58,874 nt of DNA, from NCBI RefSeq assembly GCF_000747095.1, contig NZ_JQGL01000142.1, positions 1 to 58,874 on the forward strand, read 5' to 3'. The notes under the pieces were generated by a model, which was not told the DNA's origin, ran no database searches, and saw only the letters and a list, made by a program, of their open reading frames with translations. Shown here one piece after another: positions 25,046-42,672 of the stretch; positions within the stretch are counted from its first letter, which is position 1; each line of letters opens with the position of its first letter. Origin of the DNA: Sulfuricurvum sp. MLSB (GTDB lineage Bacteria; Campylobacterota; Campylobacteria; Campylobacterales; Sulfurimonadaceae). Made by a program: the position numbers and the translations under genes.

Positions 25046-25138
25046 TAATTCCCCATCCTGCCGCTTGGCGATGTTCCCTATCGTTACAGCTTCCCGAAAA
25101 TATCGATTCGATAAGGGTTTGTTTAATCCTCTTTTTGT

Positions 25139-25144
25139 TATAGT
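25139..25144 (+). promoter_or_regulatory. Candidate -10 box of the nuo operon
   Basis: TATAGT preceded by a T-rich tract (CTCTTTTTGT). It predicts a leader of about 82 nt. Confidence 0.4.
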
Positions 25145-25145
25145 G

Positions 25146-25197
25146 CAACAACTGTTTTTAGAGAAACCGTACTTTCAACGGCAGTTTCGGGCTGTTG
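25146..25197 (+). promoter_or_regulatory. Hairpin leader of nuoA mRNA
   Basis: GAAAC-CGT (25163-25170) pairs with ACGG-CA-GTTTC (25178-25188), with a 2-nt bulge. The outer segments CAACA (25146-25150) and TGTTG (25193-25197) can extend it. It is a possible stability or regulatory element of the operon, by inference. Confidence 0.35.
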
Positions 25198-25232
25198 ACA
25201 AGTATGCCATCAACCACAAAAGGTCGGAATTA

Positions 25233-25622
25233 ATGGAGCATTACAACGTCGCAAACCCTTATTTCGGGGTATTTGTACTGTTCGTGCTGACGTTCGGGGC
25301 ATTTTACGCCACGACGGTTATCGCACGCCTTGCCAGCCGCGCTTTGGCGGCCAAAGACACGGAAAAGCTGAAACTTACGGTGTACGAATGCGGACCGGAG
25401 GTGACCAAACAGCCTAACCGTATTTCGACGCAGTTTTACCTGTTTGCGTTGTTATTTTTGCTGTTTGACGTGGAGATCGTGTTTATGTTCCCATGGGCAA
25501 TTGATTTCAAACTCCTCGGCTGGTTCGGTTTTGCCGAGATGATGATGTTCATCCTGCTGCTGGCAATCGGATTTGTTTACGCTTGGAAGAAAGGGGCGCT
25601 CGAATGGCACAACATCAAGTAA
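25233..25622 (+). CDS. nuoA: NADH-quinone oxidoreductase subunit A
   Basis: Three-helix membrane subunit of complex I at the junction with the peripheral arm. The start at 25233 gives [20 protein letters not shown], and the in-frame ATG at 25065 would add 56 unrelated residues. YECGPEV is the conserved cytoplasmic loop motif, then [13 protein letters not shown]. Length of 129 aa is typical. First gene of a 14-gene operon; overlaps nuoB by 19 bp. Confidence 0.95.
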
Positions 25623-26113
25623 ATTATCTCAAAGACGGCGGTCTTCCCGTCGCATTGACCACCATTGACAAAGTCGTCAACTGGGGGCGTTCGAACTCAC
25701 TGTGGGCATTGACCTACGGATTGGCATGCTGCGGTATCGAGATGATGGCTTCGGGTGCATCGCGCTACGATTTCGACCGTTTCGGGACGATTTTCCGTGC
25801 ATCTCCGCGTCAGGCGGAGTTGATGATCGTGGCAGGGACGCTGACCAAAAAGCACGCCGAATTCATCCGCCGTCTGTACGACCAGATGACGGAACCCAAA
25901 TGGGTTATTTCAATGGGTTCATGCGCCAACACCGGCGGTATGTTCAACACCTATGCGACAGTGCAGGGTGTGGACCGCGTTATCCCGGTCGACCTCTACC
26001 TGCCCGGCTGCGCTCCGCGCCCGGAAACGCTTCAATACGCGGTAATGCTGCTACAGCAAAAAATCCGCCGCGAAAGTGCGAATAAATCACAAAAACCAAA
26101 AAGGTTGATGTAA
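25604..26113 (+). CDS. nuoB: NADH-quinone oxidoreductase subunit B
   Basis: Carries cluster N2, the last iron-sulfur cluster before quinone. The ligand Cys residues appear in [19 protein letters not shown] and LPGCAPRPE. The start at 25604 (MAQHQVNYL) lies inside nuoA. 169 aa. Its stop shares one base with the nuoC ATG (TAATG). Confidence 0.96.
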
Positions 26114-26919
26114 TGAGAGCTTACACCCCTAAAGACGATGTACAGAAAAAACCCTATTACACCGACCGTTACTGGGTTGCTCCTCAAGTAGCCAAAAGCG
26201 ATGTGAGCGAAGACGAAGTATTTGCCGCCGACCTTGAAGCGATCAAAGCTTCATTCGAAGTTCTGGATGCGTATATCCAAGTCGGTCAAATGGTTGTCGT
26301 GATCAATGCTACGGACAATTTCGGCGTAATCAAAATGTTGAAAAATGAACGTGAGTACAATCAGCTTTCCGAACTGAGCGCGATCGACTGGCTTGCCCAG
26401 GAAGGAAAATTCGAAGTATTCTATCAGATGCTTAGTATGTCCAAGCGCAAACGCCTCCGTATCAAATGCAAAATCGGCGAAAAAGAGTCGATCGAGAGCG
26501 TTGAGAAACTGTTCCGTTCCGCCGACTGGAGCGAGCGTGAGATGTACGACATGTTCGGGATCGTCATCAACAACCATCCGTACATGAAACGTATTTTGAT
26601 GCCGGATGACTGGGAAGGCTATCCGCTTCGCAAAACCTACCCGCTTCAAGGGGACGAATTCGCTCAATGGTACGAAGTGGACAAAATCTTCGGAAAAGAA
26701 GCGCGTGAGATCATCGGGCCGGAAAACCGCGATCCTGCACGGGTCGACCGCTACGACACCGAGCGTTTTTCGCGCCTCGGACACGAAGTACCGCGCGGCA
26801 CCGACATCACTCAGGGTGAGCCGGATACGCTCATTCAGTATCAAGAAGAAGGCGGCGCCTTTATGATCGAGAAATTCGACGCACAAAAAACCGTTACGAT
26901 CTCCGATCGCGACCGTTAA
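26113..26919 (+). CDS. nuoC: NADH-quinone oxidoreductase subunit C
   Basis: 30-kDa peripheral subunit near the quinone site, separate from NuoD (not fused as in E. coli). Family signature: [43 protein letters not shown]. The N-terminal ~40 residues and the C-terminal ~60 (PGTDITQGE region) extend beyond the core. 268 aa. Confidence 0.94.
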
Positions 26920-26928
26920 GGATCAAGC

Positions 26929-28155
26929 ATGCAACAATCTAATAGACTTAGACCTTTTTTCGAAAATATTACGTTTGACCGCGACGACAATGAGCTGATC
27001 CTCAACTTCGGTCCGCAGCATCCCTCTGCGCACGGACAGTTGCGTTTGATGCTGCATTTGCAGCAAGAACAGATCACCAAAGCCCATCCGGACATCGGGT
27101 ATCTTCACCGCGGTATGGAAAAGATGGCGGAAAACATGATCTACAACGAGTTCATGCCGACGACCGACCGTATGGACTACATCGCGTCAAGCTCGAACAA
27201 CTACGGATTTGCCCTTGCGGTAGAACGCCTCATCGGTCTTGAAGTACCGCGCCGTGCGAAAGTAATCCGTATGATGCTCCTTGAGACGAACCGTCTGATG
27301 TCGCACCTTTTCTGGCTCGCGACGACGGCTCTGGATATCGGGGCGATGACCGTGTTCCTGTTTGCGTTCCGCGAGCGCGAATATCTGATGGATTTGATCG
27401 AGGATTACTGCGGCGCGCGCTTGACGCACGCGGCGGTCCGCATCGGCGGTGTCCCGCTTGACTTGCCGGATAACTTTATCGCAGACCTGCGCAAGTTCCT
27501 TGACAAACTGCCGGAGAACATCAAAGACTACGAAGATCTTCTCGATACCAACCGTATCTGGAAAATGCGTATGGAAAACGTGGGTGTGATTTCCAAAGAG
27601 ATGGCGCTCAGCTGGGGATGTTCGGGCGTTATGTTGCGTGCATCGGGCGTCGAGTGGGATATCCGCAAAGAAGAGCCGTACGAGCTTTACGACGAAGTGG
27701 AATTCAATGTTCCGGTTTCAGACAAAGGCGATAACTACGCGCGTTACAAACTTTACATGGCAGAGATGCGCGAGTCCGCGAAAATCCTGTATCAGGTGAT
27801 CGACATGTATGAAGGGACCGGCCCTGAGTTGATGGCCCATGCGCCGCAGTACATTTCGGCTCCTAAAATCGACATCATGACCCAAAACTACTCGTTGATG
27901 CAGCACTTTGTCCTCGTGACGCAGGGGATGCGTCCGCCGGTCGGTGAAGTGTATGTCGCGACCGAGTCTCCGAAAGGGGAACTGGGGTATTTCATCAATT
28001 CCCAAGGCGGAGCCTATCCGTACCGTCTTAAACTCCGCGCGCCGTCTTTCTGGCATACGGGTATTTTGACCGATCTGCTGCCGGGACACTATATCCCTGA
28101 CGTTGTATCAATCATCGGGACGACCAATATCGTCTTCGGTGAAGTAGACCGCTAA
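26929..28155 (+). CDS. nuoD: NADH-quinone oxidoreductase subunit D
   Basis: 49-kDa subunit forming the quinone pocket with Nuo[17 protein letters not shown] carries the His-rich quinone-site loop. [15 protein letters not shown] and the C-terminal [18 protein letters not shown] are canonical. 408 aa. AAGGATC precedes the ATG. Confidence 0.97.
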
Positions 28156-28169
28156 TAGAGGAGCATGCA

Positions 28170-28394
28170 GTGAAACGCTACGATTTGCGTCACCTCAAAG
28201 GTGACTTTTACGACCGCATGGGTTCTATCCTTAAAACGGAAGCACAAAGCGGCGAAGTGATCATTTTTTTGTTTGAGATCGGCGATTTTTCTCCGATTCA
28301 AAAGTCGGCCGATTTGGTTAAAGAACTCGGATGCGAGCTGATGAACTCTCTGAAGTTCAACGAAGCCGACTGGACCATTGTGGTCAAAAAATAA
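28170..28394 (+). CDS. Small complex I-associated protein in the NuoE position (HP1264-like)
   Basis: 74 aa, GTG start preceded by GAGGAG. It has no resemblance to NuoE: no Cys pair for a [2Fe-2S] thioredoxin-like cluster. The only Cys is in KELGCELMNS. It has the size and position of HP1264/Cj1575c, the small protein known to take the nuoE slot in epsilonproteobacterial complex I clusters. It probably contacts the input module encoded next, but its role is unknown. Confidence 0.75.
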   Translation: MKRYDLRHLKGDFYDRMGSILKTEAQSGEVIIFLFEIGDFSPIQKSADLVKELGCELMNSLKFNEADWTIVVKK

Positions 28395-28403
28395 GGAACC
28401 GTT

Positions 28404-30440
28404 GTGAGTAAAGTCTATTTCTCCACGTGGCGCGGTGAGCAGATCAACAACATCGGCAAAGCCGATGAAGAGTGGGAAAAATCTGCGTATAACCTCCCGT
28501 TGGAATACAACGAGCATGCCTCTTCGAAAGCCTTTATCGGCTGGGACGGCGTAGCGCTTTTCAGCCCGGATGTGGATGTGGTACGTTTGGCGACGGAGTA
28601 CGCCGCGCAGTATCAGGTCTATTCCGAGGCATGCGGCCGCTGTGCTCCGGGGCGTTGGGGCGGACGGATCCTGTATGATCTGCTCGACAAAATCGCTCGC
28701 GGCGAAGGTGCTCTTTCGGACATGGAGCATCTCAAAGAGGTCTCTAAAACGATGCAGGAAACCTCCAAATGCGAGATCGGCAAAACCGTTCCGAACCCTC
28801 TGCTGGATCTGATGAATCACTTCGAGTCGGAATTTATGGCGTGCATCGAAGGACAAAAACCTTCCAAGCATTACCATATGCACGATACGAATTACATCGC
28901 TAAAATCACCGCTCCGTGCATGGACGCCTGTCCGGCGCATGTTGACATCCCCGCCTACATCGAGGGTGTGCGCGATTTGCGTTTTGACGATTCGCTGATG
29001 GCGACGCGCCAGACGATGCCTCTGGCCCACACGTGCGGCCGTGTATGTCCGCATCCGTGCGAGACCGAATGCCGCCGTACGAATCTGGACGAGGCGATCT
29101 CTATCATGGAGCTCAAACGTCTGGGTGCCGATTACGAGACCGATCACGGATTCGGATTTTTCCACCCTGCGCAGAAGAAGCCCTCTATCGGCAAAAAAGT
29201 GGCGGTGATCGGCGCGGGCCCTGCGGGTCTTACGGGAGCGTATTATCTGGCGCTTGAAGGTGTCGACGTCGACGTGTACGAAGAGCTTCCGGTCCTCGGT
29301 GGAGAGGTGGCGGTCGGGGTTCCCGAATACCGCATGCCGATCGACAAGTACAATCAGGACATCGAAGCGGTCCGTGATCTTGGGGTAAACTTCATCACCA
29401 ATACGAAAGTCACCGCCGACATGATGCGTCAGTTTGAAAACGATTATGACGCGGTCCTCGTCGCTACCGGAACGCGTATTTCGAAAAAAGTCTATTGTGA
29501 CAACGAACGTCCCGAGATTCAGGGATACTGGGGAGCCATCGACTTTTTGGACAAAGTGAACCTGCAGGTCAAATACGACATCATGGTTCCCGAAGCGGAC
29601 CAGAAGCGGCACATGCTTCCGGCCAATTTCGTCGACCTGAGCGGCAAAACGCTTGCGTGCGTCGGGGGCGGGTTTACCTCGATGGACGTTGTCCGCTGCG
29701 CAATCCGTGCCGGTGCGAAAAAAGTGATCATGCTGTACCGCCGCGACGAAGCGACGATCATCAAAAACACGACGTACGAAGAGTATCACGAAGCGGTCGA
29801 AGAAGGGGTCGAGTTTATTTTCCACTCCGCAGTCGCCAAAATGAACGACGAAAACGACGTTCTCAAATCGTTGACGGTGGACCGTTTCGAACTCGTTCCA
29901 GACCCGAACGGCGGACGCCCGACGCTTGAGAAGATCGATGGGGCATCTTTTGATATCGACGTCGATTACCTGATTCCGGCCGTATCTCAGAGCGCCGATC
30001 TCAAACTCCTCCCCGAAGAGTGGGAGATCGAGCGCACCTCATGGGCGACGATCAAAACCAACGGCAAGGACTACATGACCTCTCGCAAAGGGATCTTTGC
30101 GGCGGGCGACTGCGAATACGGCCCGATGACGATCGTCAACGCCGTCGGTCAGGCCAAACGGGCCGCATCGGTGATGGCCCGCTATGTCCAGAGCGGCGAG
30201 ATCACGCTGAGCGACGATGAGATTATGGAAGACCACCTGCGCAAGCTCAAAGTCTATGATAAGAAAGAGAAAATCAAAGGGTGGCTTCCGGGCCTTCCTA
30301 GAGCGCACAGCGAAGTGCTCACCGTGGATGAGCGCAAAGACAACAACCGTGAAGTCAAATACGGCTTTACGCAGGAAGAGGCGTTAGCCGAAGCGGAGCG
30401 CTGCATGCGCTGTTATTACATCGCGATGGTCGCGCACTAA
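28404..30440 (+). CDS. NuoF-replacement: N3-like domain fused to GltD-type FAD/NAD(P)H oxidoreductase
   Basis: 678 aa, GTG start with AAGGA. Residues ~1-155 resemble the C-terminal iron-sulfur part of NuoF: ACGRCAPGRWGG stands where NuoF has SCGxCxPCR, so the third Cys is Gly, and SKCEIGKTVPNPL carries the last Cys. Residues ~170-240 hold GltD-type [4Fe-4S] motifs, CMDACPAHVDIPAYI and CGRVCPHPCETECRR. FAD motif KVAVIGAGPAGLTGAYYL; NAD(P)H motif ACVGGGFTSMDVV, followed by MLYRRDE, whose arginines suggest NADPH preference. GIFAAGDCEYGPMTIV closes the fold. The FMN/NADH domain of true NuoF is absent. Probably the electron-input subunit of this complex I; donor inferred. Confidence 0.82.
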   Translation: MSKVYFSTWRGEQINNIGKADEEWEKSAYNLPLEYNEHASSKAFIGWDGVALFSPDVDVVRLATEYAAQYQVYSEACGRCAPGRWGGRILYDLLDKIARGEGALSDMEHLKEVSKTMQETSKCEIGKTVPNPLLDLMNHFESEFMACIEGQKPSKHYHMHDTNYIAKITAPCMDACPAHVDIPAYIEGVRDLRFDDSLMATRQTMPLAHTCGRVCPHPCETECRRTNLDEAISIMELKRLGADYETDHGFGFFHPAQKKPSIGKKVAVIGAGPAGLTGAYYLALEGVDVDVYEELPVLGGEVAVGVPEYRMPIDKYNQDIEAVRDLGVNFITNTKVTADMMRQFENDYDAVLVATGTRISKKVYCDNERPEIQGYWGAIDFLDKVNLQVKYDIMVPEADQKRHMLPANFVDLSGKTLACVGGGFTSMDVVRCAIRAGAKKVIMLYRRDEATIIKNTTYEEYHEAVEEGVEFIFHSAVAKMNDENDVLKSLTVDRFELVPDPNGGRPTLEKIDGASFDIDVDYLIPAVSQSADLKLLPEEWEIERTSWATIKTNGKDYMTSRKGIFAAGDCEYGPMTIVNAVGQAKRAASVMARYVQSGEITLSDDEIMEDHLRKLKVYDKKEKIKGWLPGLPRAHSEVLTVDERKDNNREVKYGFTQEEALAEAERCMRCYYIAMVAH

Positions 30441-30450
30441 GGAGGGATGG

Positions 30451-32706
30451 ATGATCAATTTTACGATTAACGGCCAGCCCGTCACCGCGCAAAAAGGGGA
30501 GACGATTCTCCAAGCGGCCCGCAAAGCGGGTTTTTACATCCCGACGATGTGTTATCTCGAAAAAACGACCCCGTGTGCATCCTGCCGTCTGTGTGTTGTC
30601 GAGACCGACAAAACCGACGGATTCATCCTCAGTTGTCAGACCCCACCTACCGAAGGGCTCTCTGTCACGATCGATTCGGAAAACCTCAAGGCAGAGCGGA
30701 CGAACATCATGCGTCTCTATGACGTCAATCATCCGTTGGAATGCGGCGTGTGCGACAAGTCGGGGGCGTGCGACCTTCAGAACAAGACACTCGAATTCGG
30801 GGTTTCGGCGCAGCATTTCAGTGCCAAGGAACAGCACCGCACAATCGAGCATTGGGGATTGATCAATTACGATCCTTCCTTGTGCATCCTGTGCGAAAAA
30901 TGCGTCCACGTCTGTAACGAGATCATCGGAGACGATGCCATCGAATTGCAGTTCGGAGGATACAAATCCTCCGTCGTGCCGAAAAACAGCGAGAAACTCG
31001 ATTGTACGTTCTGCGGCGAATGTATCGCTGTCTGTCCGGTCGGAGCGCTCGTGAGTTCGGATTTCCAGTACAGTGCCAACGCGTGGGAACTGACCCAGAT
31101 TCCTGCGACGTGTGCGCACTGTTCGGCGGGATGTTCGCTGGTATACGAAGTGCGCCATACGTCAAACGCACTCGGCGCCAAACCGAAGATTTACCGTGTG
31201 ACCAACGACTTTGAACACGCAACCTTGTGCGGTGCGGGACGGTTCGGTTTTGACTTCGGCAGCGAGGGGGCCAAAGACGAAGCGGAGCTTGCCCGCGCCG
31301 TCGATGCGATCCAAGAGCACAAGGCGATCCGCTTCAGCTCGCTGATCACCAACGAAGAAGCCTATATCCTCCAAAAGCTCAAAGAGAGTGCGGGAATCAA
31401 GCTGTACAACGAAGAAGCCAGAGCCTATCAGGATTTCATGAAAGCCTACGGCTCGATCAGCGGCAAAAAAAGCACGGGCGGAAGTATCGACGCGGTAGCG
31501 AAAAGCGACGGTGTCATCGTATTCGGCGGAAGAATCGCGACGGACAATCCGGCGCTCCGCTACGCGATGACGACGGCTGCGCGCCACAACGGGGCGAAAG
31601 TCGTCTACATGCATCCGCTTGAAGACGCACTGCTGCAAAACGTCGTGACACAGTACGTCAAATACGAAGTCGGAACCGAAGAGGGCGTTGCGGCGATGCT
31701 CGCCAAAACGTTGCTGAAAGAGGCCGATGTCAGCGAAGAGACACGCCGTTATTTTGACGACCTTGACGAAGGGTACTTGTGCGCCGAAAGCAATGTCGGA
31801 GACGAAGAGTTTGAGCGGATCTCGAAAACTTTTGCACGCACCAAACGCAAAACATTGATCATCGGAAGCGATCTGCTAAGTCACGGGCGTGCGCAAAATA
31901 TCGCGAGATTGTGCGCCATGATCGAAGCGTATACCGATTTTTCGGTTGTTGTTGCGGCACCGAGCGTCAATACCGTCGGTGTGTCGCTCATCTGCGATCT
32001 TGATGCGGACGGCGCGAATGTGAAAGCGGTCGGATACAACGCGCACGGCGTCTACACGATGGGCTCATTCGGCAACGTACAGCTTCGGCTGCCGGCGCTG
32101 AATTCTCAGGAAGGGACGTTCGTCAGCATCAACCATCAGGTACTTCCGACCAACGTCGCGGTCGCGTTTGAAGGGTATACCTTGAACGATGTTGCTTCGC
32201 GTCTTGGCGTAAGCAGCGCCAACACGATCGATTACACCGCGCAGCTGCCGGTATCGAGCGGATTCAGCGGAAGCGAGTTCGACGCGCTGGGGAACTTTTA
32301 CGGACCGCTGGGCGAAGACAGACGGGGGTATGTCCTTGAAAACGTCGATGTCGAAGCCGACGGAGAGCTTGAAGAGGTGGAAGATCTGCCGGAGTTCAAC
32401 GGTACGGTCGTGTACCGCTGCAATCCGGTGAATCAGTTCAATGCGTATACGGCGCAAAGCCGACAGCTCGAAAAAGATACAGCTTTGCGCGGTTCGGCTC
32501 AATTTGCGGCTGCCGCAAAAATTGCGAACGGTGATAAAATTCGCGTTGAGTTCGGCTCGGGAAGCGAAGAGCGTATGTTCGTACTCGACGGCGAGATGAA
32601 AGGGACCGTGGCGCTGGTGCCCTCGTATGACGGGGCGTACGGTGCGGCGAACGATCGTTATCGGTTCGAAAAGGTAAAAATTTCGAGGGTGGGGAGTGAA
32701 GTATGA
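30451..32706 (+). CDS. nuoG1: NADH-quinone oxidoreductase subunit G, first copy
   Basis: 751 aa. All cluster motifs are present: the [2Fe-2S] set (MCYLEKTTPCASCRLC ... LSC), HPLECGVCDKSGAC (His plus three Cys), LCILCEKCVHVC, LDCTFCGECIAVCPVG and the N7-type set TCAHCSAGC ... LCGAGRFGFD. The C-terminal ~450 residues are a reduced molybdopterin-oxidoreductase-like region. AAGGAGG precedes the ATG. It shares its layout with the next gene but has diverged strongly, so this is an old duplication. It overlaps nuoG2 by 4 bp (ATGA). Confidence 0.93.
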   Translation: MINFTINGQPVTAQKGETILQAARKAGFYIPTMCYLEKTTPCASCRLCVVETDKTDGFILSCQTPPTEGLSVTIDSENLKAERTNIMRLYDVNHPLECGVCDKSGACDLQNKTLEFGVSAQHFSAKEQHRTIEHWGLINYDPSLCILCEKCVHVCNEIIGDDAIELQFGGYKSSVVPKNSEKLDCTFCGECIAVCPVGALVSSDFQYSANAWELTQIPATCAHCSAGCSLVYEVRHTSNALGAKPKIYRVTNDFEHATLCGAGRFGFDFGSEGAKDEAELARAVDAIQEHKAIRFSSLITNEEAYILQKLKESAGIKLYNEEARAYQDFMKAYGSISGKKSTGGSIDAVAKSDGVIVFGGRIATDNPALRYAMTTAARHNGAKVVYMHPLEDALLQNVVTQYVKYEVGTEEGVAAMLAKTLLKEADVSEETRRYFDDLDEGYLCAESNVGDEEFERISKTFARTKRKTLIIGSDLLSHGRAQNIARLCAMIEAYTDFSVVVAAPSVNTVGVSLICDLDADGANVKAVGYNAHGVYTMGSFGNVQLRLPALNSQEGTFVSINHQVLPTNVAVAFEGYTLNDVASRLGVSSANTIDYTAQLPVSSGFSGSEFDALGNFYGPLGEDRRGYVLENVDVEADGELEEVEDLPEFNGTVVYRCNPVNQFNAYTAQSRQLEKDTALRGSAQFAAAAKIANGDKIRVEFGSGSEERMFVLDGEMKGTVALVPSYDGAYGAANDRYRFEKVKISRVGSEV

Positions 32707-35189
32707 GTGACATAACGATTACCATAGACGGCCGCACGGTTCAGACGCAAGAGGGCGAATACATCCTCAATGCGGCGCGTGCGAATGGTATTTTTATTCC
32801 GGCAATCTGTTATTTGACGCGATGTTCGCCGACGCTGGCGTGCCGTATCTGTCTGGTCGAAGCCGACGGCAAACAGGTCTATGCGTGTAATGCCAAAGCC
32901 AAAGAGGGGATGAACATTACGACGACGACCCCCAATATCGAAGCGGAACGCCGCGCGATCATGGAAGTGTACGACGTTAACCACCCGCTTGAGTGCGGCG
33001 TGTGCGACCAGTCGGGCGAATGCGAGCTTCAGAACTACACACTCGAAATCGGTGTCGATTCTCAGACCTATTCCATTGCCGATACGCACAAACCGGCGCA
33101 GGACTGGGGCTTTATCCATTACGATCCGGCATTGTGTATCATGTGTGAGCGTTGTATCACCGTCTGTAAAGACATGATCGGGGACGCTGCCCTCTCGACC
33201 GTGGCACGTGGCAGCGAGGGGATCGATGCCGCGTTCAAAGAGTCGATGCCCAAAGACGCCTATGCGATGTGGAACAAGCTGAACAAATCGCTTATTGCCC
33301 CGAACGGCGGCGATACCCTCGACTGTACCGACTGCGGTGAATGTTCGGCGGTATGTCCGGTCGGAGCATTGGTCAGTTCGGATTATCAGTACACTTCAAA
33401 CGCATGGGAACACAAACAGATCCCGGCGACGTGCGCTCATTGTTCGGCGGGATGCCAGCTCAGTTATGACATCAAACATACGAGCATAGCCGATACCGAC
33501 GAGAAAATCTATCGCGTCAAAAACGAATGGAACTACGTCTCCTTGTGCGGTGCGGGACGCTACGGATACGATTTCGAAAACCGCGTTGCCGCCAAAGACG
33601 TACACGCATTTGATGCGGCGGTAGCGGCATTCAAAAAAGCCGATACGATTGCGTTTACCTCGACGATCACCAACGAAGAGGCACTGATCCTTCAAAAGCT
33701 GAAAGAAAAATACGGCTACCGCCTGATCAACGAAGAGGCGCGAGTGTTCAAAAATTTCCTTGCGTCGTACGCTTCGATCAGCGGAAAATCGCTTTACGGC
33801 GGGGATTTGAAACAGGTGCACGAAGCCGATTTTGTCGTCTCAATCGGAAGTGCGCTCAAAACCGACAACCCGAATGCCCGTTTCGCGATGAACAACGCGC
33901 TCTCCATGAACAAAGGTGCCGGGCTCTATTTCCATCCGATCCTCGATCCGGTTATTCAGGAAATGTCGAAGAACGTCACGCAGATCGCGCACGCTCCGAT
34001 GATGGAAGAGGCGGCACTGTACCTGATGCTCGATCTTTTCGGGGACAAAGCCTCCATGCCTTCGGATATCGTTTCGTATCTGGCGGGCTTTCATTCGACC
34101 AAAACCGTCACCGTCGATGAGATGGTGGATGAAAAAGTGACCGAGACGGTCGTGAAAAAAGTCCTCAACGAAGAGACCGGGATCGAAGAAGAAGTCAGCG
34201 AAGAAGTGACGAAGACGGTCAAGAAAAAAGTCTCCAAAGAGGTCGAAATCGACGACAACGCTTTGTTTGCGCTACTGAACGCAGGTGACAAATTCGCCGA
34301 AACGCTGGAAAAATATCTGGCGAAAAAAGAGACGTTCGCGCTGATGGTAGGGCCGGATCTGTATACCCACACTAACAGTGCGAACTGCGCCCGTCTGGTT
34401 GCGCTGATCGAAAAATACACTCCGTTCAGCGTGACGATGATTCCGAACCTCTCAAACACTCTTGGGGTTGCGATGATCTGTGATCTGGACAGTGAACGCG
34501 GAAGCTATTGTGTCGGTTACAACGTAGCAGGCGATTTCACCCTCAGCGCTTTGGGCAACGGCGATCTGGATATGCCGGCCCTGAACCAGCAAGAGGGGAC
34601 CCTTACGGGCATCGACAAGCGGGTCAATCCGACCAATGCGGCGCTTTCGTACGGCGGATATGTCCTGAACGATATCGCCAACGCACTGGGGCTGAATACC
34701 AAATATACGGTCGAATACACGAAGCAGCTTCCGGCATCGGCGGGATTCAAAGCGCTTGAATTCGACGCGCTCCCCAACTACTACACCAACAGCGGTGAAG
34801 AGGTACGCGGGTATGTGATGGAGAACGTCGCGGTGCCGACAAGCGGCGATGAGAAAGTTGCCGCGTTCGATGCACGCTCGGCAATGGCGGGAAGCCTCGT
34901 CTATCTGGCCAATCCGGTGTTGCAGTTCTCGGCGTTCACCGCACGTGCGCATCAGCTGCAAAGGTCGGGCGGAGTGTACGTTTCCAAAGGGTATATGGAA
35001 GCGAACGGCTTGGGCGAAGGTGAGCGCGTTCGTGTCAAAACGGCACGCGGCGAGCTTGTCGTCAACGTTATTTGTGACGGTAAAATCGACGGAGATATCG
35101 CATATCTTCCGACATTCGATACGCAGATCAATTCCGAAGCACTGTTTGACGGTTACCGTTTTACGAGTGTATCAATTCAAAAGGTGTAA
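32703..35189 (+). CDS. nuoG2: NADH-quinone oxidoreductase subunit G, second copy
   Basis: 828 aa, close to the length of the single NuoG of Campylobacter and Helicobacter, so probably the canonical copy. Ligand sets: ICYLTRCSPTLACRIC, HPLECGVCDQSGEC, LCIMCERCITVC, LDCTDCGECSAVCPVG, TCAHCSAGC and LCGAGRYGYD. Compared with NuoG1 it has an insertion between the second and third clusters (EGIDAAFKESMPKDAYAM) and a charged Lys/Glu/Val-rich insertion around residues 460-515 (VTETVVKKV, EEVTKTVKKKV). Paralogue of the preceding gene, translationally coupled to it. Confidence 0.93.
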   Translation: MSDITITIDGRTVQTQEGEYILNAARANGIFIPAICYLTRCSPTLACRICLVEADGKQVYACNAKAKEGMNITTTTPNIEAERRAIMEVYDVNHPLECGVCDQSGECELQNYTLEIGVDSQTYSIADTHKPAQDWGFIHYDPALCIMCERCITVCKDMIGDAALSTVARGSEGIDAAFKESMPKDAYAMWNKLNKSLIAPNGGDTLDCTDCGECSAVCPVGALVSSDYQYTSNAWEHKQIPATCAHCSAGCQLSYDIKHTSIADTDEKIYRVKNEWNYVSLCGAGRYGYDFENRVAAKDVHAFDAAVAAFKKADTIAFTSTITNEEALILQKLKEKYGYRLINEEARVFKNFLASYASISGKSLYGGDLKQVHEADFVVSIGSALKTDNPNARFAMNNALSMNKGAGLYFHPILDPVIQEMSKNVTQIAHAPMMEEAALYLMLDLFGDKASMPSDIVSYLAGFHSTKTVTVDEMVDEKVTETVVKKVLNEETGIEEEVSEEVTKTVKKKVSKEVEIDDNALFALLNAGDKFAETLEKYLAKKETFALMVGPDLYTHTNSANCARLVALIEKYTPFSVTMIPNLSNTLGVAMICDLDSERGSYCVGYNVAGDFTLSALGNGDLDMPALNQQEGTLTGIDKRVNPTNAALSYGGYVLNDIANALGLNTKYTVEYTKQLPASAGFKALEFDALPNYYTNSGEEVRGYVMENVAVPTSGDEKVAAFDARSAMAGSLVYLANPVLQFSAFTARAHQLQRSGGVYVSKGYMEANGLGEGERVRVKTARGELVVNVICDGKIDGDIAYLPTFDTQINSEALFDGYRFTSVSIQKV

Positions 35190-35192
35190 ACA

Positions 35193-36182
35193 ATGGATGC
35201 AGCATTCATTATCGAAACGATCGTAAAAATCGTTGTCATCATGTTGATTTTTTCCGCGCTCGCAGGGTTTGGAACCTATTTCGAGCGTAAGGTTCTGGCG
35301 TTTATGCAACGCCGCCTCGGGCCGATGCACGTCGGACCGTACGGATTGCTTCAGATTATGGCGGACGGGATCAAGCTTTTTACCAAGGAAGACATCGTTC
35401 CCCAGAACGTCGTCAAGCCGATTTTTAAAATCGCTCCGGTCATCACCGCGGCGACCGCTTTCATGGCGGCGGCGGCGATTCCGTTTTGGCCTCAGTTTAC
35501 CGTTATGGGTTATACGGTCCATCCGATCGTTGCGGATATCAATGTCGGTATCCTCTACGTCCTTGGGGTCATGGCCATCGGTCTTTACGGACCGCTTCTT
35601 GGGGGTATGGCATCGGCGAACAAATGGTCGTTGATCTCGGCGGCTCGGAGTGCGGCGATTTTCATTTCCTATGAAGTCATTACGGGTCTATCCCTCCTTG
35701 CGCCGTTGATGATGGTCGGATCGTTGTCGCTGATCGATATCAACAACTACCAAGCCGGCGGCATTACGAACTGGATCGTCTGGTCGCAGCCGGTCGCGTT
35801 TATCCTTTTCTGGATCGCCGCGTTTGCCGAGACGGGACGTACGCCGTTTCACCTCGTGGCCAACGACCACGAGATCATCGACGGTTTCGGTACCGAGTAT
35901 TCGGGTATGCGCTGGGGTCTGTTCTTTATCGGTGAATACGCCAATATGTTCTTCATCTCGTTTGTGATGGCGATCATCTTCCTGGGCGGTTTTGGTGACG
36001 GTACGATTGCGGGGGCGGTACAGCTGATCCTCAAAGTAGCGTTTTTCTTTTTCTTTTTCCTCTGGACACGTGCCGCATGGCCGGATGTCCGACCTGACCA
36101 GTTGATGTGGTTGTGTTGGAAAGTATTAATGCCGATCGCCGTGCTCAACGTTATCGTTACCGGCATCGTGATGATGTTCTAA
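35193..36182 (+). CDS. nuoH: NADH-quinone oxidoreductase subunit H
   Basis: Membrane subunit that lines the quinone chamber. Eight or so helices; signatures include YFERKVLAFMQRRLGPMHVGPYG, AFAETGRTPFHLVANDHEI and GFGTEYSGMRWGLFFIGEY. 329 aa, normal. It begins 3 bp after nuoG2. Confidence 0.96.
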   Translation: MDAAFIIETIVKIVVIMLIFSALAGFGTYFERKVLAFMQRRLGPMHVGPYGLLQIMADGIKLFTKEDIVPQNVVKPIFKIAPVITAATAFMAAAAIPFWPQFTVMGYTVHPIVADINVGILYVLGVMAIGLYGPLLGGMASANKWSLISAARSAAIFISYEVITGLSLLAPLMMVGSLSLIDINNYQAGGITNWIVWSQPVAFILFWIAAFAETGRTPFHLVANDHEIIDGFGTEYSGMRWGLFFIGEYANMFFISFVMAIIFLGGFGDGTIAGAVQLILKVAFFFFFFLWTRAAWPDVRPDQLMWLCWKVLMPIAVLNVIVTGIVMMF

Positions 36183-36195
36183 GGGGGTACGTGTT

Positions 36196-36819
36196 ATGCA
36201 TCATGAAGAACCGTTTAAAGACCGTAATGTGAGCGAACAAAGCGCCTATTATTTCGTCGATATCGAAGCCTATCCCGAAAACGGATGGGATAAATTCAAA
36301 CAGGTTGCCCGTCGTACGTTCAGCGGCGAACTGTTTGTCGGATTGTGGGTCGTACTGCGTGAGATGATCAAATTTGATATCCACACCGTGCAGTATCCGA
36401 AAGAGAAACTCCCGATCGGGCCGCGTTACCGTGCGGTTCATAAACTGTTGCGTTTGTGGGAATCGGGATACGAGCGCTGCATCGGGTGCGGGCTGTGCGA
36501 AAAAATCTGTATCTCCGATTGTATCCGCATGGACACGCGTATCGACGAGAACAGCCGCAAAGAGGTCACCGAGTACAGCATCAATCTCGGACGCTGCATC
36601 TTCTGCGGTTACTGTGCCGAAGTATGTCCTGAGTTGGCGATCGTTCACGGCCCGCGTTTCGAGAACGCTTCGGAACAGCGTGCCCATTTTGTCATCAAAG
36701 ATGATATGTTGACCCCGCTGGATTTGCTCAAAGCAGGTGAACAGGCCGAATATCCGGGCTTCGGTGCGGTTATCCCGGGAAGCGATGCGTCGGTCAAAAA
36801 GACCCCGCTTGCGTATTAA
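36196..36819 (+). CDS. nuoI: NADH-quinone oxidoreductase subunit I
   Basis: Ferredoxin-like subunit with two [4Fe-4S] clusters (N6a and N6b). Motifs CIGCGLCEKICISDC and CIFCGYCAEVCPE. 207 aa, with a longer N-terminus and C-terminal tail than E. coli NuoI. Confidence 0.96.
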   Translation: MHHEEPFKDRNVSEQSAYYFVDIEAYPENGWDKFKQVARRTFSGELFVGLWVVLREMIKFDIHTVQYPKEKLPIGPRYRAVHKLLRLWESGYERCIGCGLCEKICISDCIRMDTRIDENSRKEVTEYSINLGRCIFCGYCAEVCPELAIVHGPRFENASEQRAHFVIKDDMLTPLDLLKAGEQAEYPGFGAVIPGSDASVKKTPLAY

Positions 36820-36830
36820 GGAGTTTAGGT

Positions 36831-37415
36831 ATGTTTGAAGCAATTGCTTTTTATCTGTTTGCGGCGTTGACGATTGTGATGTTTACGATCACCGTAATGA
36901 CGTCTCAAGCGTTATACGCGTTGACGGCAATGGCGGCAGGGATGATTTTTATCTCGGCGTTTTTCTTTATTCTGGGAGCCGATTTTTTGGGTGCTATCCA
37001 GATCATCGTGTATACCGGTGCGGTAATGGCGCTGTATGCGTTCGGGATGATGTTCTTTGATACGACCCGCAATGTCGTGGAAAAACGGACCAATCCGCAA
37101 ATCGTATTTATTCTTGGAACGTTGGCAGCCATTATGGTTGTTGCGATTGTCGTCGCTCCGATCGTTTCCAACAACATTCAAGCTCTTTATCCGATTCAGG
37201 AGGGGGTAGGTAACTCTCAAGCGGTGGGAATGGTATTGTTTACCAAATACCTCGTACCGTTTGAAGTAGCGGCGGTTATGCTGCTGGTTGCTATGATCGC
37301 GGGGATCGTCCTCGCCGGCAAGAAAATGGACAAATCGCTCACATTGATGGCCGAAGAAGAGATCGAGATGATGCATGCGTCTACTGAAACACACCAAGAG
37401 AGAGGGGAACACTGA
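36831..37415 (+). CDS. nuoJ: NADH-quinone oxidoreductase subunit J
   Basis: Five-helix membrane subunit. FILGADFLGAIQIIVYTGAVMALYAFGMM is the characteristic broken helix 3. 194 aa. Its stop overlaps the nuoK ATG by 1 bp (TGATG). Confidence 0.94.
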   Translation: MFEAIAFYLFAALTIVMFTITVMTSQALYALTAMAAGMIFISAFFFILGADFLGAIQIIVYTGAVMALYAFGMMFFDTTRNVVEKRTNPQIVFILGTLAAIMVVAIVVAPIVSNNIQALYPIQEGVGNSQAVGMVLFTKYLVPFEVAAVMLLVAMIAGIVLAGKKMDKSLTLMAEEEIEMMHASTETHQERGEH

Positions 37416-37720
37416 TGGAAATTACCCTTACCCATTATCTGGTTTTATCGGCGGTATTGTTTGCGATCGGTTTGATCGGGGTCATGCGTCGTAAAAACCT
37501 TTTATTGCTTTTTTTCGCTACCGAGATTTTGCTGAATGCGACCAACATCGCATTTGCGGCGATTTCCCACTATATCGGCGATTTGAGCGGACAAATGTTT
37601 GCGTTTTTCATTATCGCGATTGCGGCATCGGAAGTAGCGGTCGGTTTGGGACTGCTCATCGTGTGGTACAAACGTACCGGCAAGATCGATCTTGATCAAA
37701 TGACTTCAATGCGAGGATAG
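37415..37720 (+). CDS. nuoK: NADH-quinone oxidoreductase subunit K
   Basis: Three-helix membrane subunit with the conserved helix Glu residues: FFATEILLNATNIAF and IAIAASEVAVGLGLLIVW. 101 aa, normal. Confidence 0.96.
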   Translation: MEITLTHYLVLSAVLFAIGLIGVMRRKNLLLLFFATEILLNATNIAFAAISHYIGDLSGQMFAFFIIAIAASEVAVGLGLLIVWYKRTGKIDLDQMTSMRG

Positions 37721-37723
37721 TCT

Positions 37724-39610
37724 ATGGAACTTTATTTATATATTGCACTCTTCGCTCCGCTGGCCGGGTCGCTTTTTGCGGCGCTGTTCGGCATGTCCCC
37801 GAAAACGAAATTGACGGGATATGTGGCGTCGGCTCTGTTGTTCGCTTCGTTTGTGAGCAGCGCTGTTTTATTGAACTACGTCATGAGCGGTCACACGGTT
37901 CATGTTGAACTGATGACATGGATGGCGACGGGAGATCTGTACATTCCGTTCGGATTTGTCGTCGATCAGGTAAGCGTCGTCATGATGATGGTTGTTACGA
38001 TCGTTTCGACCGTTGTACACGTCTATTCGATCGGGTATATGGACCACGACAAAGGGTTCAACCGTTTCTTCTCATGGCTTTCGGCATTCGTGTTCTCGAT
38101 GATGGTTCTCGTCATGAGCGACAACTTTGCGGGGCTTTTCATCGGATGGGAAGGGGTCGGTCTGTGTTCATGGGGACTCATCGGATTCTGGTACCAGAAA
38201 GAATCGGCAACCTGGGCGGCGAACGAAGCGTTCATTATGAACCGCATCGCCGACCTTGGGATGTTGATCGGTATTTTCCTGCTGTATTGGAATGTTGGAT
38301 CGCTTCAGTACGATGTCGTATTTGCAGAGGTCGGCAACCTTCCGATCGCCGTGGTCACCTGGATCGGTATTTTCCTTTTCATCGGAGCGATGGGTAAATC
38401 GGCTCAGTTCCCGCTGCACACATGGCTTGCAGACGCGATGGAAGGTCCGACTCCTGTTTCGGCTCTGATCCACGCGGCAACGATGGTTACGGCCGGGGTT
38501 TATCTGGTCGTCCGTGCGAATCCGATTTATGATTTGATTCCGAATGTCGGCATCTTTATCGCCAGCCTCGGTGCGTTTGTCGCCCTTTTCGCGGCGTCTA
38601 TGGCGCTGGTGAACCGCGATATGAAACGAATCATCGCGTATTCGACATTGTCGCAGCTGGGGTATATGTTTGTAGCCGCAGGCTTGGGAGCGTACTGGGT
38701 TGCGTTGTTCCACCTGATGGCGCACGCGTTTTTCAAAGCGCTGCTGTTCCTCGGTGCGGGTAACGTCATGCACGCGATGCACGACGAACTTGATCCGTTT
38801 AAAATGGGCGGATTGCGCAAAGTGATGAAAGGGACGTTCGTGATGATGACTCTTGCATCAGTTGCTTTGGCGGGTATCTATCCGTTTGCCGGATTCTTCT
38901 CAAAAGATTTGATTCTGGAAGTCGGATTCGTTGAACACCACTACGTCATTTACACCGTATTGTTACTGACGGCCGGTTTGACGGCATTCTATTCTTTCCG
39001 TCTGGTTGCTTTGATCTTCCACGGCGAAGAGCGCTACAAACTGTTCGGCATCCATCCGCATGAAGCGTATAAATTCATGCTGGTGGCTATGTCACCGCTG
39101 CTGGTTCTGGCAATCATCGCCGGGGCATTCAAAATGACCTATTATCAGCTGGTGATCAATCTGCTTCCCTCGACGCAGTACCACGTTCACAGTGAGATGA
39201 CGTATTGGATCATGACGATCGGAACGCAGCTGTTTGTTATCGCGGCGATTGTGTTTGCGTACAAAAAATACGCCAACTGGAGCAGCGTTCCGGACGGAAC
39301 GTCGAAAATGGAAAACCGTTTTTGCTACAAACTTTTGTGGAATCAGTATTACATTCCGAAGTTTTACGAAGAGGTTTTTTCGAAACCGTATTTGGAACTT
39401 TCCCGCATCGCATGGAAACAGATCGATCTTAAAATCGTTGATGCAACCGTCGATGCGATCGCGAACGCGATTTACAAAACGGGTGAGAATACACGCGATA
39501 TTCAGGACGGGAACCTCTCCAGCATGCTACGCTGGATGGTTGTCGGTCTGGTCGTTTTACTGGCGCTTGCCGTTGCCTTCACCGTTGGTTACAACGCGGT
39601 CGGCGCTTAA
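37724..39610 (+). CDS. nuoL: NADH-quinone oxidoreductase subunit L
   Basis: Distal antiporter-like proton channel with a C-terminal lateral helix. Motifs: FIGWEGVGLCSWGLIGFW (key Glu), GAMGKSAQFPLHTWLADAMEGPTPVSALIHAATMVTAGVYLV and STLSQLGYM. 628 aa, with the long C-terminal extension present. Confidence 0.97.
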   Translation: MELYLYIALFAPLAGSLFAALFGMSPKTKLTGYVASALLFASFVSSAVLLNYVMSGHTVHVELMTWMATGDLYIPFGFVVDQVSVVMMMVVTIVSTVVHVYSIGYMDHDKGFNRFFSWLSAFVFSMMVLVMSDNFAGLFIGWEGVGLCSWGLIGFWYQKESATWAANEAFIMNRIADLGMLIGIFLLYWNVGSLQYDVVFAEVGNLPIAVVTWIGIFLFIGAMGKSAQFPLHTWLADAMEGPTPVSALIHAATMVTAGVYLVVRANPIYDLIPNVGIFIASLGAFVALFAASMALVNRDMKRIIAYSTLSQLGYMFVAAGLGAYWVALFHLMAHAFFKALLFLGAGNVMHAMHDELDPFKMGGLRKVMKGTFVMMTLASVALAGIYPFAGFFSKDLILEVGFVEHHYVIYTVLLLTAGLTAFYSFRLVALIFHGEERYKLFGIHPHEAYKFMLVAMSPLLVLAIIAGAFKMTYYQLVINLLPSTQYHVHSEMTYWIMTIGTQLFVIAAIVFAYKKYANWSSVPDGTSKMENRFCYKLLWNQYYIPKFYEEVFSKPYLELSRIAWKQIDLKIVDATVDAIANAIYKTGENTRDIQDGNLSSMLRWMVVGLVVLLALAVAFTVGYNAVGA

Positions 39611-39616
39611 GGAGTA

Positions 39617-41167
39617 ATGATGATGGATCATATTTTATCGCTTTTGATTTTTTTCCCGGCATTGGCGGCAATGCTCGGGTTTGTTGTCCGACAAGACAGC
39701 ATCCGCGCGTACGGTATCGCCGTAGCGGGGATCGAATTTTTCCTCTCGTTGTGGCTATGGTATGCGTACGATCCGATGGTTTCAGGGATGCAGTTCATGG
39801 AAGCGGCTCCTTTGATTCCGGCGTTCGGAATCAATTATTTGCTGGGTATTGACGGGATTTCCCTCTTTATTATTATTCTTTCGACGTTTTTCACGCTGAT
39901 CGGTATTGCGTCTCTGACCGAAACGCGCCGCGTTAAAGACATGATTATCACTTTGTTGTTCCTTGAGATGACGATGGTGGGTGTGTTTGCGGCGCTGGAT
40001 GCGATCGTGTTCTATGTGTTCTGGGAACTTTCTCTCGTTCCGATGCTCTATATTATCGGTGCATGGGGCGGACCGCTGCGTATTTATGCGTCGGTCAAGT
40101 TCTTCCTTTATACGTTTGCCGGATCGCTCGTCATGCTCGTCGGTATGCTCTTTATGGCGTACTTTTACTATCAAGCGACCGGGACATGGAGCTTTTCGAT
40201 TCTGGAGTGGTATCGCCTGATTTTGCCGGAAAACTTCCAGATCTGGTTGTTTGTCGCGTTCTTCCTCGGATTCGCGATCAAGGTTCCTATGTTTCCGTTC
40301 CATACATGGCTTCCGTATGCGCACGGACAGGCTCCGACCATCGGTTCGGTGATCCTTGCGGCTATTTTGCTGAAAATGGGAACCTACGCGTTCGTCCGTT
40401 TTTCGCTTCCGCTTTTCCCGGATGCGTCGGTATTTTTCATGTTTCCGATCGCCATCATCGCGATTATCATGATCATCTATACGGCGATGGTGGCGTACGC
40501 GCAAGAAGACATCAAACAAGTCGTCGCCTACAGCTCGATTTCGCACATGGGGGTCATCATCCTCGGTACGTTCGCCCTGAACGTTGAAGGGGTGAGCGGT
40601 TCGGTCTTTTTGATGATCGCCCACGGGGTCGTTTCCGGCGCGCTGTTCCTTTTGGTCGGCGTGATTTATGATCGCCGTCATACGAAACTGATGAGCGAAT
40701 TCGGCGGATTGGCATCGGTCATGCCGCGCTACGCAACAATTTTCGGGATCATGATGATGGCATCGGTAGGGCTTCCGTTGACGATCAACTTCGTCGGGGA
40801 ATTTTTGAGTCTTCTCGGGTTCTATAAGCAATCGCATATGTTGACCCTCACCGCAGGGGTGGCGATTATCGTCGGCGCGATCTACATGCTTTCGGCGTAC
40901 AAAAAAGCGTTTTTCGGTCAGGTGAGCAAAGAAGAGAACACAAAACTCAAAGACCTTAACAAAACCGAGCTGGTCGGACTCGTACCGCTGGTCATCGTCG
41001 CGATCTGGTTGGGAGTTTATCCCAAGCCGGTGCTGGAACCGATCAACAACAGCGTTGAATCGGTCATTCAGCTGATGCACGATAAAGCGCAAAGCGCTGA
41101 AGCCAAAGAGCGCATCCCGAACCTTTCTGAGTCCAACGGGATTATTTCAATGCAGGAGGCACACTAA
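39617..41167 (+). CDS. nuoM: NADH-quinone oxidoreductase subunit M
   Basis: Antiporter-like proton channel. [55 protein letters not shown] and [10 protein letters not shown]. 516 aa. Three consecutive in-frame ATGs (39617, 39620, 39623) follow GGAG; the middle or last is better spaced, but the exact start cannot be decided. Shares one base with nuoN. Confidence 0.96.
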
Positions 41168-42672
41168 TGTTGGAGCCTGTCAATGTTTCACTGGCGTCGC
41201 TGAATCTGGCAACGCTGGCACCTATGCTCATCGCCATCGTCGGTGCGCTTTCGATGTTGGTGATCGATCTTGTCAAGGGGGGATTACACAAATCTCTCTA
41301 TGTCATGGTCAGTTTGCTCTTTTTGCTCCTTGATTTGGGGGCTTTGGTCGATTTTGGCGGTGTCTTTCTGAAAAACGGGACGGTTCTTGGATTCTTTGAC
41401 GTGATGCTGATGGACGGAATTGCCATTCTGTCGCAGATCATCATTGTTGCGGGTTCGATGCTTTTTATCCCGTTGGCGCTGACATCCAAGCGGTTCCATG
41501 AGTACAACTATCCTGAGTATTTTTCTCTGTTCCTGTTCATGATCGCGGGTTTTCAGTTCATGGTAGCAACGGACAACCTGATCCTCGTTTTTGTCGGTCT
41601 TGAAACGGCATCATTGGCGTTGTACACTCTTATCGCATTGCACAATCGCCGCAAATCGTTCGAAGCGGCGGTCAAATATTTTACAATGGGAGCATTGGCA
41701 GCCGGATTCTATGCTTTCGGTGCGATGATTTTGTATGCGATCAGCGGTTCGGTCGAGATCAACCAGATCGCGACGATACTCGCAGAAGATCATTACAGCA
41801 ATATCGGCTACGTCCTGATCGCCGTCAGTTTCATGATTGCGGCGTTCGGTTTCAAACTCTCTATGGTTCCGTTTCATACGTGGACGCCGGACGTTTATGA
41901 AGGCTCGTCGGCGGCACTTGCCGGATACATGTCTATTGTCCCGAAAATTGCCGGATTCGTCGTGGCAATGCGCTTGTTTGAATTCCTCGTTCACAGCGGC
42001 GTCGTATGGCTGCAGGTGATCCTCTACATCGGAGTTGTCGTGACGATGACGGCGGCGAACATCTGGGCGCTGGTGCAGACCGACGTCAAACGGATGTTGG
42101 CGTATAGCTCGATTTCGCATGCGGGATTCGTCATGGCGGCGATTTTGATCGGTACGACACAGGCCAATACGGGGTTGTTCCTTTATTGGGCGCTGTTTAG
42201 TTTCACAAACCTCGGTGCCTTTACAATGCTGTGGGTGAATCGCCAGAAAAACCTGCTACCGGGGCAAAGCTCAGACCATCCGTATGAGAAATTTTCCGGT
42301 ATGGTCAAAACAATGCCGATGGCGGCGATCATGATGGGTCTGTTTATGCTCTCGCTTGCGGGTATTCCGCCGTTCGGTCTGTTCTGGGGCAAAATATACA
42401 TGATCGGCTCAGCCGTCAGCGCCGGCTATACGCTGTTGGCGCTCATCATGGCTCTAAACTCGGCGATTGCGGGATACTATTATCTTAAACTGATTGTCTT
42501 CATGTTTATGAAAGAGCCGATGGTCGGGTATGAGGGGTATTATCTGATGAACGCCTCTTTGTCGCTCAAAACAATCATCGGTGTTGCGGCGGTCGGAACG
42601 ATATTCGCCGTTTTTGCCGTGAACCCGCTTTTGGAAGTCATTACATTATTCGTGTATAATAGCGGCTATTAA
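41167..42672 (+). CDS. nuoN: NADH-quinone oxidoreductase subunit N
   Basis: Third antiporter-like subunit. [41 protein letters not shown] with key Glu and Lys, [31 protein letters not shown] and YSSISHAGF. 501 aa. Last nuo gene; a TATAAT box for pflA lies in its final codons. Confidence 0.96.
42655..42660 (+). promoter_or_regulatory. -10 box for pflA within the end of nuoN
   Basis: TATAAT 26 bp before the pflA ATG; AAAGGGGG supplies the Shine-Dalgarno. It suggests expression of pflA apart from nuo read-through. Confidence 0.5.

Follow-up and report, generated by a model that had tools for sequence, protein, structure and literature searches.

Clusters N1b, N5 and N4 are the on-path clusters of known complex I. 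Cluster N7 has been reported to lie off this path and to be needed for stability, and a review of NuoG variation gives a range of three to five clusters per protein (PMC5123574). In Campylobacter jejuni, cj1574c and cj1575c were described as replacing nuoF, and Cj1574c is stated in reviews to act with flavodoxin in bringing electrons into complex I (PMC4178425). The name nuoXY is used for these replacement genes (PMC6682613), and the Helicobacter pylori protein HP1264 was reported to bind FMN (PMC6269979). Our literature search found neither an account of one complex with two NuoGs nor a statement that the Cj1574c/HP1265 protein ('NuoF/NuoY') derives from NuoG; the 2008 papers on C. jejuni complex I and on Sulfurimonas denitrificans, which lay outside this search, may already mention two nuoG genes. 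Here we analyse a nuo operon with two nuoG genes from Sulfuricurvum sp. MLSB (contig NZ_JQGL01000142.1). The window is the whole stretch of 58,874 nucleotides that was analysed, and all positions refer to it.

The nuo operon and its two nuoG genes

The gene order is nuoABCD, NuoE*, a NuoF-N3/GltD fusion gene, nuoG1, nuoG2 and nuoHIJKLMN:

25065..28155, + strand: 5' part of the operon, with nuoA (longest ORF 25065-25622; homologues start near 25233), nuoB (25583-26113), nuoC (26113-26919) and nuoD (26929-28155)
28170..28394, + strand: NuoE* (NuoX), 74 aa, homologue of the FMN-binding HP1264 (PDB 2LXR, E=2.2e-23)
28404..30440, + strand: NuoF-N3/GltD fusion gene (Pfam PF10589, PF14691 and PF07992)
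28632..28652, + strand: incomplete N3 ligand motif C77-G-R-C80-A-P-G83 (CGRCAPG) of the fusion protein, with Gly in place of the third cysteine
30451..32706, + strand: nuoG1, 751 aa, with N1b, N5, N4, a second ferredoxin-type [4Fe-4S] cluster and N7, then a molybdopterin-like C-terminal domain
32703..35189, + strand: nuoG2, 828 aa, with cluster sites as in nuoG1, overlapping nuoG1 by ATGA
35193..42672, + strand: 3' part of the operon, with nuoH (35193-36182), nuoI (36196-36819), nuoJ (36831-37415), nuoK (37415-37720), nuoL (37724-39610), nuoM (39617-41167) and nuoN (41167-42672)

The genes nuoH, nuoI, nuoJ and nuoL were checked against relatives, and nuoK, nuoM and nuoN were named by position and length alone. 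The whole genome contains one NuoD in a nuo operon, and each of the Nuo subunits other than NuoG is encoded once, in one operon. Among named genomes, those of Sulfuricurvum are most closely related. Another PF00346 (NuoD-like) protein, at G000:C139:6780-7499, is possibly a subunit of a group 4 hydrogenase. Elsewhere in the window, positions 19253-21079 encode a P-loop ATPase resembling the KAP family, and this gene adjoins an endonuclease IV-like gene.

The original prediction described two tandem, divergent NuoG subunits with intact ligand sets, N7 included, which are coupled by a 4-bp overlap. We have confirmed each of these points. The two ORFs are intact and adjacent, lie within one nuo operon and overlap by 4 bp (ATGA), and the proteins are 41% identical in a whole-length comparison. 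Both score above the cut-off of 591 bits of the NCBI curated NuoG equivalog NF006305 (NuoG1 884.6 bits, NuoG2 1179.8 bits), and both fall below the cut-off of 470 bits of the stricter TIGR01973 (234 and 189 bits, respectively). They are the only PF10588 proteins in the genome, without a third. The ligands found in NuoG1 are C34/C45/C48/C62 (N1b), H94/C98/C101/C107 (N5), C145/C148/C151/C195 (N4) and C221/C224/C228/C260 (N7), and those in NuoG2 are C36/C47/C50/C62, H94/C98/C101/C107, C145/C148/C151/C218 and C244/C247/C251/C282, respectively. A second ferredoxin-type [4Fe-4S] site, which had not been mentioned in the prediction, is present in both NuoGs and brings the number of cluster sites to five per protein. 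E. coli NuoG is not known to have the cysteines of this extra cluster. The sites outside N1b, N5 and N4 were located in the ligand alignment as follows:

30913..31023, + strand: second ferredoxin-type cluster ligands C155...C185/C188/C191 of NuoG1, present in 97-98 of 99 rows
31111..31230, + strand: N7 ligands of NuoG1
33165..33344, + strand: second ferredoxin-type cluster ligands C155...C208/C211/C214 of NuoG2, present in 91/91 rows
33432..33548, + strand: N7 ligands of NuoG2

Five clusters in one NuoG lie inside the known range, since three to five have been described (PMC5123574); the unusual part is the presence of two five-cluster NuoGs in one operon. The N1b, N5 and N4 ligands are invariant in the 91 NuoG2 rows and in every NuoG1 row with an uncut N-terminus. 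Sites outside this set, such as N7 and the second ferredoxin-type cluster, are sometimes lost among relatives. The NuoG2 N7 is missing in three genomes of families f7 and f9 (L129, L130 and L133) which keep the whole double-NuoG module, and it is also gone from the single NuoG of the examined f3 and f10 genomes and of the f7 genome G122; in all of these proteins the cysteines are replaced and an NPHSSDC-type motif is found. (Family f3 appears to be Campylobacter-like, f2 Helicobacter-like, f10 Sulfurospirillum-like and f7 Arcobacter-like.) Similarly, the second ferredoxin-type cluster of NuoG1 was lost in L120 and L133, and the L133 NuoG1 is also without N7, while N1b, N5 and N4 remain. N7 is no reliable sign of the electron wire, and its role as a bridge between NuoG1 and NuoG2 is ruled out by the three f7/f9 genomes with the whole module that lost the NuoG2 N7.

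In the AlphaFold model of NuoG1, residues 270-645 form a confidently predicted molybdopterin-like domain, and formate dehydrogenases and complex I NuoG occurred throughout the Foldseek match list of this model. The result for NuoG2 was similar, with an additional long beta-hairpin insert. The Fe-S halves of both models were unreliable and gave no structural information, with pLDDT values mostly below 50 and shallow alignments.

34092..34259, + strand: lysine/glutamate-rich insert of NuoG2, modelled as a long beta-hairpin arm

This insert is found in most, not all, relatives, with or without NuoG1. A function of the hairpin as a clasp for NuoG1 is unsupported, as the insert occurs in many single-NuoG genomes and is missing from some with the tandem.

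The fusion protein encoded upstream of nuoG1 consists of a NuoF N3-cluster domain, from which the flavin/NADH domain is missing, and then a GltD-like unit for FAD and NAD(P)H, and its PDB matches are GltD/Nfn/HylA and NuoF/HydB. The third N3 cysteine of the solved NuoF and HydB proteins corresponds to Gly83 in 92/92 homologues. The N3 site would therefore have three cysteine ligands or carry no cluster, and the place of this domain in a wire is doubtful. A genome-wide search, in which E. coli and others were matched, gave no match to canonical NuoE (PF01257) or to the FMN/NADH domain of NuoF (PF01512).

Distribution and history of NuoG1 and its remnant

The NuoG1-NuoG2 tandem was found in 76 of 80 named loci, mostly from Sulfuricurvum and Sulfurimonas, and the other four loci are cut by contig ends. 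The order of the fusion gene, nuoG1 and nuoG2 and their translational coupling are conserved among relatives. In a sample of 150 Campylobacterota genomes, 127 had any match. The NuoF-N3 domain gave 33 strong matches in nuo operons of the 150 genomes, and the Fe-S half of NuoG1 is present in exactly the 33 genomes which have the fusion gene upstream. NuoG2 occurs alone in 85 genomes, none of which has the N3 fusion. Fisher's test of 33/0 against 0/85 gives 5e-30, a value that is too small since the genomes are related; the number of state changes on a tree is a better measure. The strict pairing with the fusion gene identifies NuoG1 as the paralogue linked to the input module. NuoG2 is the orthologue of the sole full NuoG in Helicobacter- and Campylobacter-type genomes, and one member of the Helicobacter-type family (L150) retains the whole module. 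No relatives were found among viral contigs. The remaining nine of the 127 genomes have a distant NuoG only, with a weak NuoF-like match in six of them; they are G012, G017, G024, G108 and G132 (f3 g14) and G008, G030, G106 and G127 (f7 g12), in which the nuo operon or complex I is probably replaced or different.

A phylogeny of the two NuoGs had been named beforehand as a check. In the tree of the Fe-S halves, a branch with 100/99 support parts the paralogues across all families, with NuoG1 on one side and every single NuoG inside NuoG2. A recent local duplication is thus ruled out, and the NuoG1/NuoG2 split, as placed by this tree, predates the divergence of the Campylobacterota families.

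The genomes with a single NuoG have kept a part of NuoG1. All 18 distinct single-NuoG operons that were read contain a gene of about 230-340 codons between NuoE* and NuoG, and in 18/18 this gene proved to be what is left of the NuoG1 C-terminal domain. By position, it is cj1574c of C. jejuni. The remnant family matched the C-terminal half of NuoG1 with E=3.8e-57 and that of NuoG2 with 1e-21 (hhalign). A tree of the shared columns separated NuoG1 and the remnants from NuoG2 and the single NuoGs (split 100/100); in this tree the f2 remnants group with f2 NuoG1, and the remnant of one f7 genome is joined (99/86) to a full-length NuoG1 from a different f7 genome. All remnants are without the Fe-S half and without a common internal block (about residues 519-637), so that two blocks of nuoG1 survive in the Cj1574c/HP1265-slot protein:

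31483..32004, + strand: first surviving block of nuoG1, residues about 345-518
32362..32703, + strand: second surviving block of nuoG1, residues about 638-751

The profile matches and the tree splits show that the 'NuoF replacement', as judged at the sequence level, represents the tail of a second NuoG. This gives an origin to the Helicobacter and Campylobacter subunit that had for a long time been described only as taking the place of NuoF. The results suggest that these bacteria lost the NAD(P)H input unit and kept the tail of the extra NuoG copy.

The tree of the operon backbone contains at least four changes between the full and the reduced states, and on the NuoG2 tree the grouping of the reduced (single-NuoG) genomes as one clade was rejected (AU p=4.5e-6). 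NuoG1 and the fusion gene therefore come and go as a unit, and a single loss of the module is rejected on the NuoG2 tree. The tree of the remnant domain does not reject it: when the remnants were aligned with NuoG1 alone, a single origin of the truncation stood (AU p=0.077), which leaves room for a single truncation followed by transfer between lineages. Most simply, the double-NuoG state would be ancestral.

A putative enlarged peripheral arm and its alternatives

The original prediction had offered two explanations of the second NuoG, two complex variants or one enlarged arm with a longer electron wire from the unusual input module. The co-occurrence of NuoG1 with the fusion gene and the persistence of the NuoG1 tail beside nuoG2 favour one arm behind the unusual input module and disfavour two variants. 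NuoG1 and NuoG2 probably follow one another within a single complex I, as parts of one enlarged peripheral arm. NuoG2 would be the core NuoG joining NuoI and NuoB, and NuoG1 would be part of the input module formed with the neighbouring NuoF-N3/GltD fusion protein; its Fe-S half is strictly paired with the fusion gene, which points to NuoG1 as serving this input. The FAD of the GltD-like domain would take up electrons from NAD(P)H or, in the reverse direction, release them to make NAD(P)H. The path would lead from the Fe-S clusters of the fusion protein through N1b-N4-N5 of NuoG1 and N1b-N4-N5 of NuoG2 to NuoI, NuoB and menaquinone. A second port, open to flavodoxin or ferredoxin, would be made up of the FMN-binding NuoE* together with the NuoG1 C-terminal domain. 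From these data we infer the physical co-assembly of both NuoGs, their serial order and the longer electron wire through them, as well as NAD(P)H as the substrate and the direction of flow. NADPH is a candidate substrate by analogy with GltD and Nfn, to which the GltD-like domain is related.

Full ligand sets are kept by both paralogues, NuoG1 follows the GltD-type input and NuoG2 occurs without it, as could be expected if either NuoG docked on the same NuoCDI site and two alternative complexes were formed, with GltD-type input to NuoG1 and flavodoxin input to NuoG2 and NuoE*. We regard this as rather unlikely because every other subunit is encoded once, in one operon, and nuoG1 and nuoG2 are translationally coupled, and the persistence of the NuoG1 tail beside NuoG2 after the loss of the Fe-S half is hard to square with mere replacement. 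The reported role of Cj1574c in electron entry with flavodoxin (PMC4178425), together with this tail beside NuoG2, argues that a NuoG1-derived chain works alongside NuoG2 in one complex. The same report that the remnant acts in complex I speaks against a separate soluble NAD(P)H:acceptor oxidoreductase of the StnABC kind, formed by NuoG1 and the fusion protein and simply co-transcribed with nuo genes. GltD-like and NuoG-like domains are partners in one chain in StnC and HylA, but the genome is without a NuoE-type or flavin-bearing NuoF partner and in all examined families the genes have stayed within the nuo operon, which makes this explanation quite unlikely. A mainly structural or assembly role of NuoG1, whose clusters would carry no catalytic current, could account for the many lineages which keep just its non-Fe-S C-terminal domain and for the loss of its N7 and second ferredoxin cluster in single lineages. 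It appears very unlikely, however, since no complete NuoG1 sequence deviates in the N1b, N4 and N5 ligands, and genomes without the input gene are exactly those without the Fe-S half.

The serial wire through NuoG1 and NuoG2 is the best reading, as N1b, N5 and N4 are invariant in both paralogues, whereas the off-path N7 is sometimes lost. Against the serial arrangement, we know of no solved precedent for a second NuoG in series. With two NuoGs, the predicted complex I would carry about ten Fe-S clusters in these subunits in many free-living Campylobacterota that metabolise sulfur, hydrogen and nitrate, and its predicted NAD(P)H input would differ from that of any solved complex I. More tentatively, though still plausibly, there may be a dual-input arm in which the two NuoGs lie in series from the GltD-type NAD(P)H input to the membrane arm, while NuoE* and the NuoG1 tail provide a port for flavodoxin/ferredoxin. 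Such an arm could couple NAD(P)H, flavodoxin or ferredoxin and menaquinone, possibly by electron confurcation or by reverse transport that makes NADPH, and the enzyme of Helicobacter/Campylobacter would have descended from it by reduction. Reverse electron transport making NAD(P)H in lithoautotrophs is a suggestion, which was made for Nautilia too. Which donor feeds complex I in these bacteria, a question of long standing, thus becomes directly testable.

Comparison with known systems

The operon shares the NuoA-D and NuoG-N architecture and the N1b/N5/N4/N7 ligands with the canonical 14-subunit complex I of E. coli, Thermus thermophilus and Aquifex aeolicus. Among solved sequences, the Aquifex NuoG (7q5y) comes closest, and it shares the cysteines of the extra ferredoxin-type cluster. 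In contrast to canonical complex I, two NuoGs are present here, NuoE is absent, and NuoF is cut to a ligand-deficient N3 domain fused to a GltD-like domain. A GltD-like NADPH/FAD unit paired with a NuoG-like Fe-S unit is also found in StnABC (Sporomusa-type Nfn) and HylABC. These enzymes differ in being soluble, without a membrane arm, and in having NuoE and a flavin-bearing NuoF; moreover, their GltD and NuoG parts form one chain, whereas these are separate genes here.

The Campylobacterota-type complex I (epsilon-Nuo, with nuoXY for nuoEF) of C. jejuni and H. pylori shares the operon order, NuoE*/NuoX and the NuoG2-type NuoG with this locus. It is likewise without the NADH-oxidising NuoE/NuoF, and its gene before nuoG is homologous to NuoG1. 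The homologue of NuoX/HP1264 between nuoD and nuoG was found here too. Flavodoxin or ferredoxin was reported as the donor for C. jejuni complex I (PMC4178425) and would be a candidate donor here. The C. jejuni-type genomes have neither the fusion gene nor the Fe-S half of NuoG1, whereas the slot of the short Cj1574c/HP1265 subunit holds here a full-length NuoG1 with five cluster sites and the fusion gene ahead of it.
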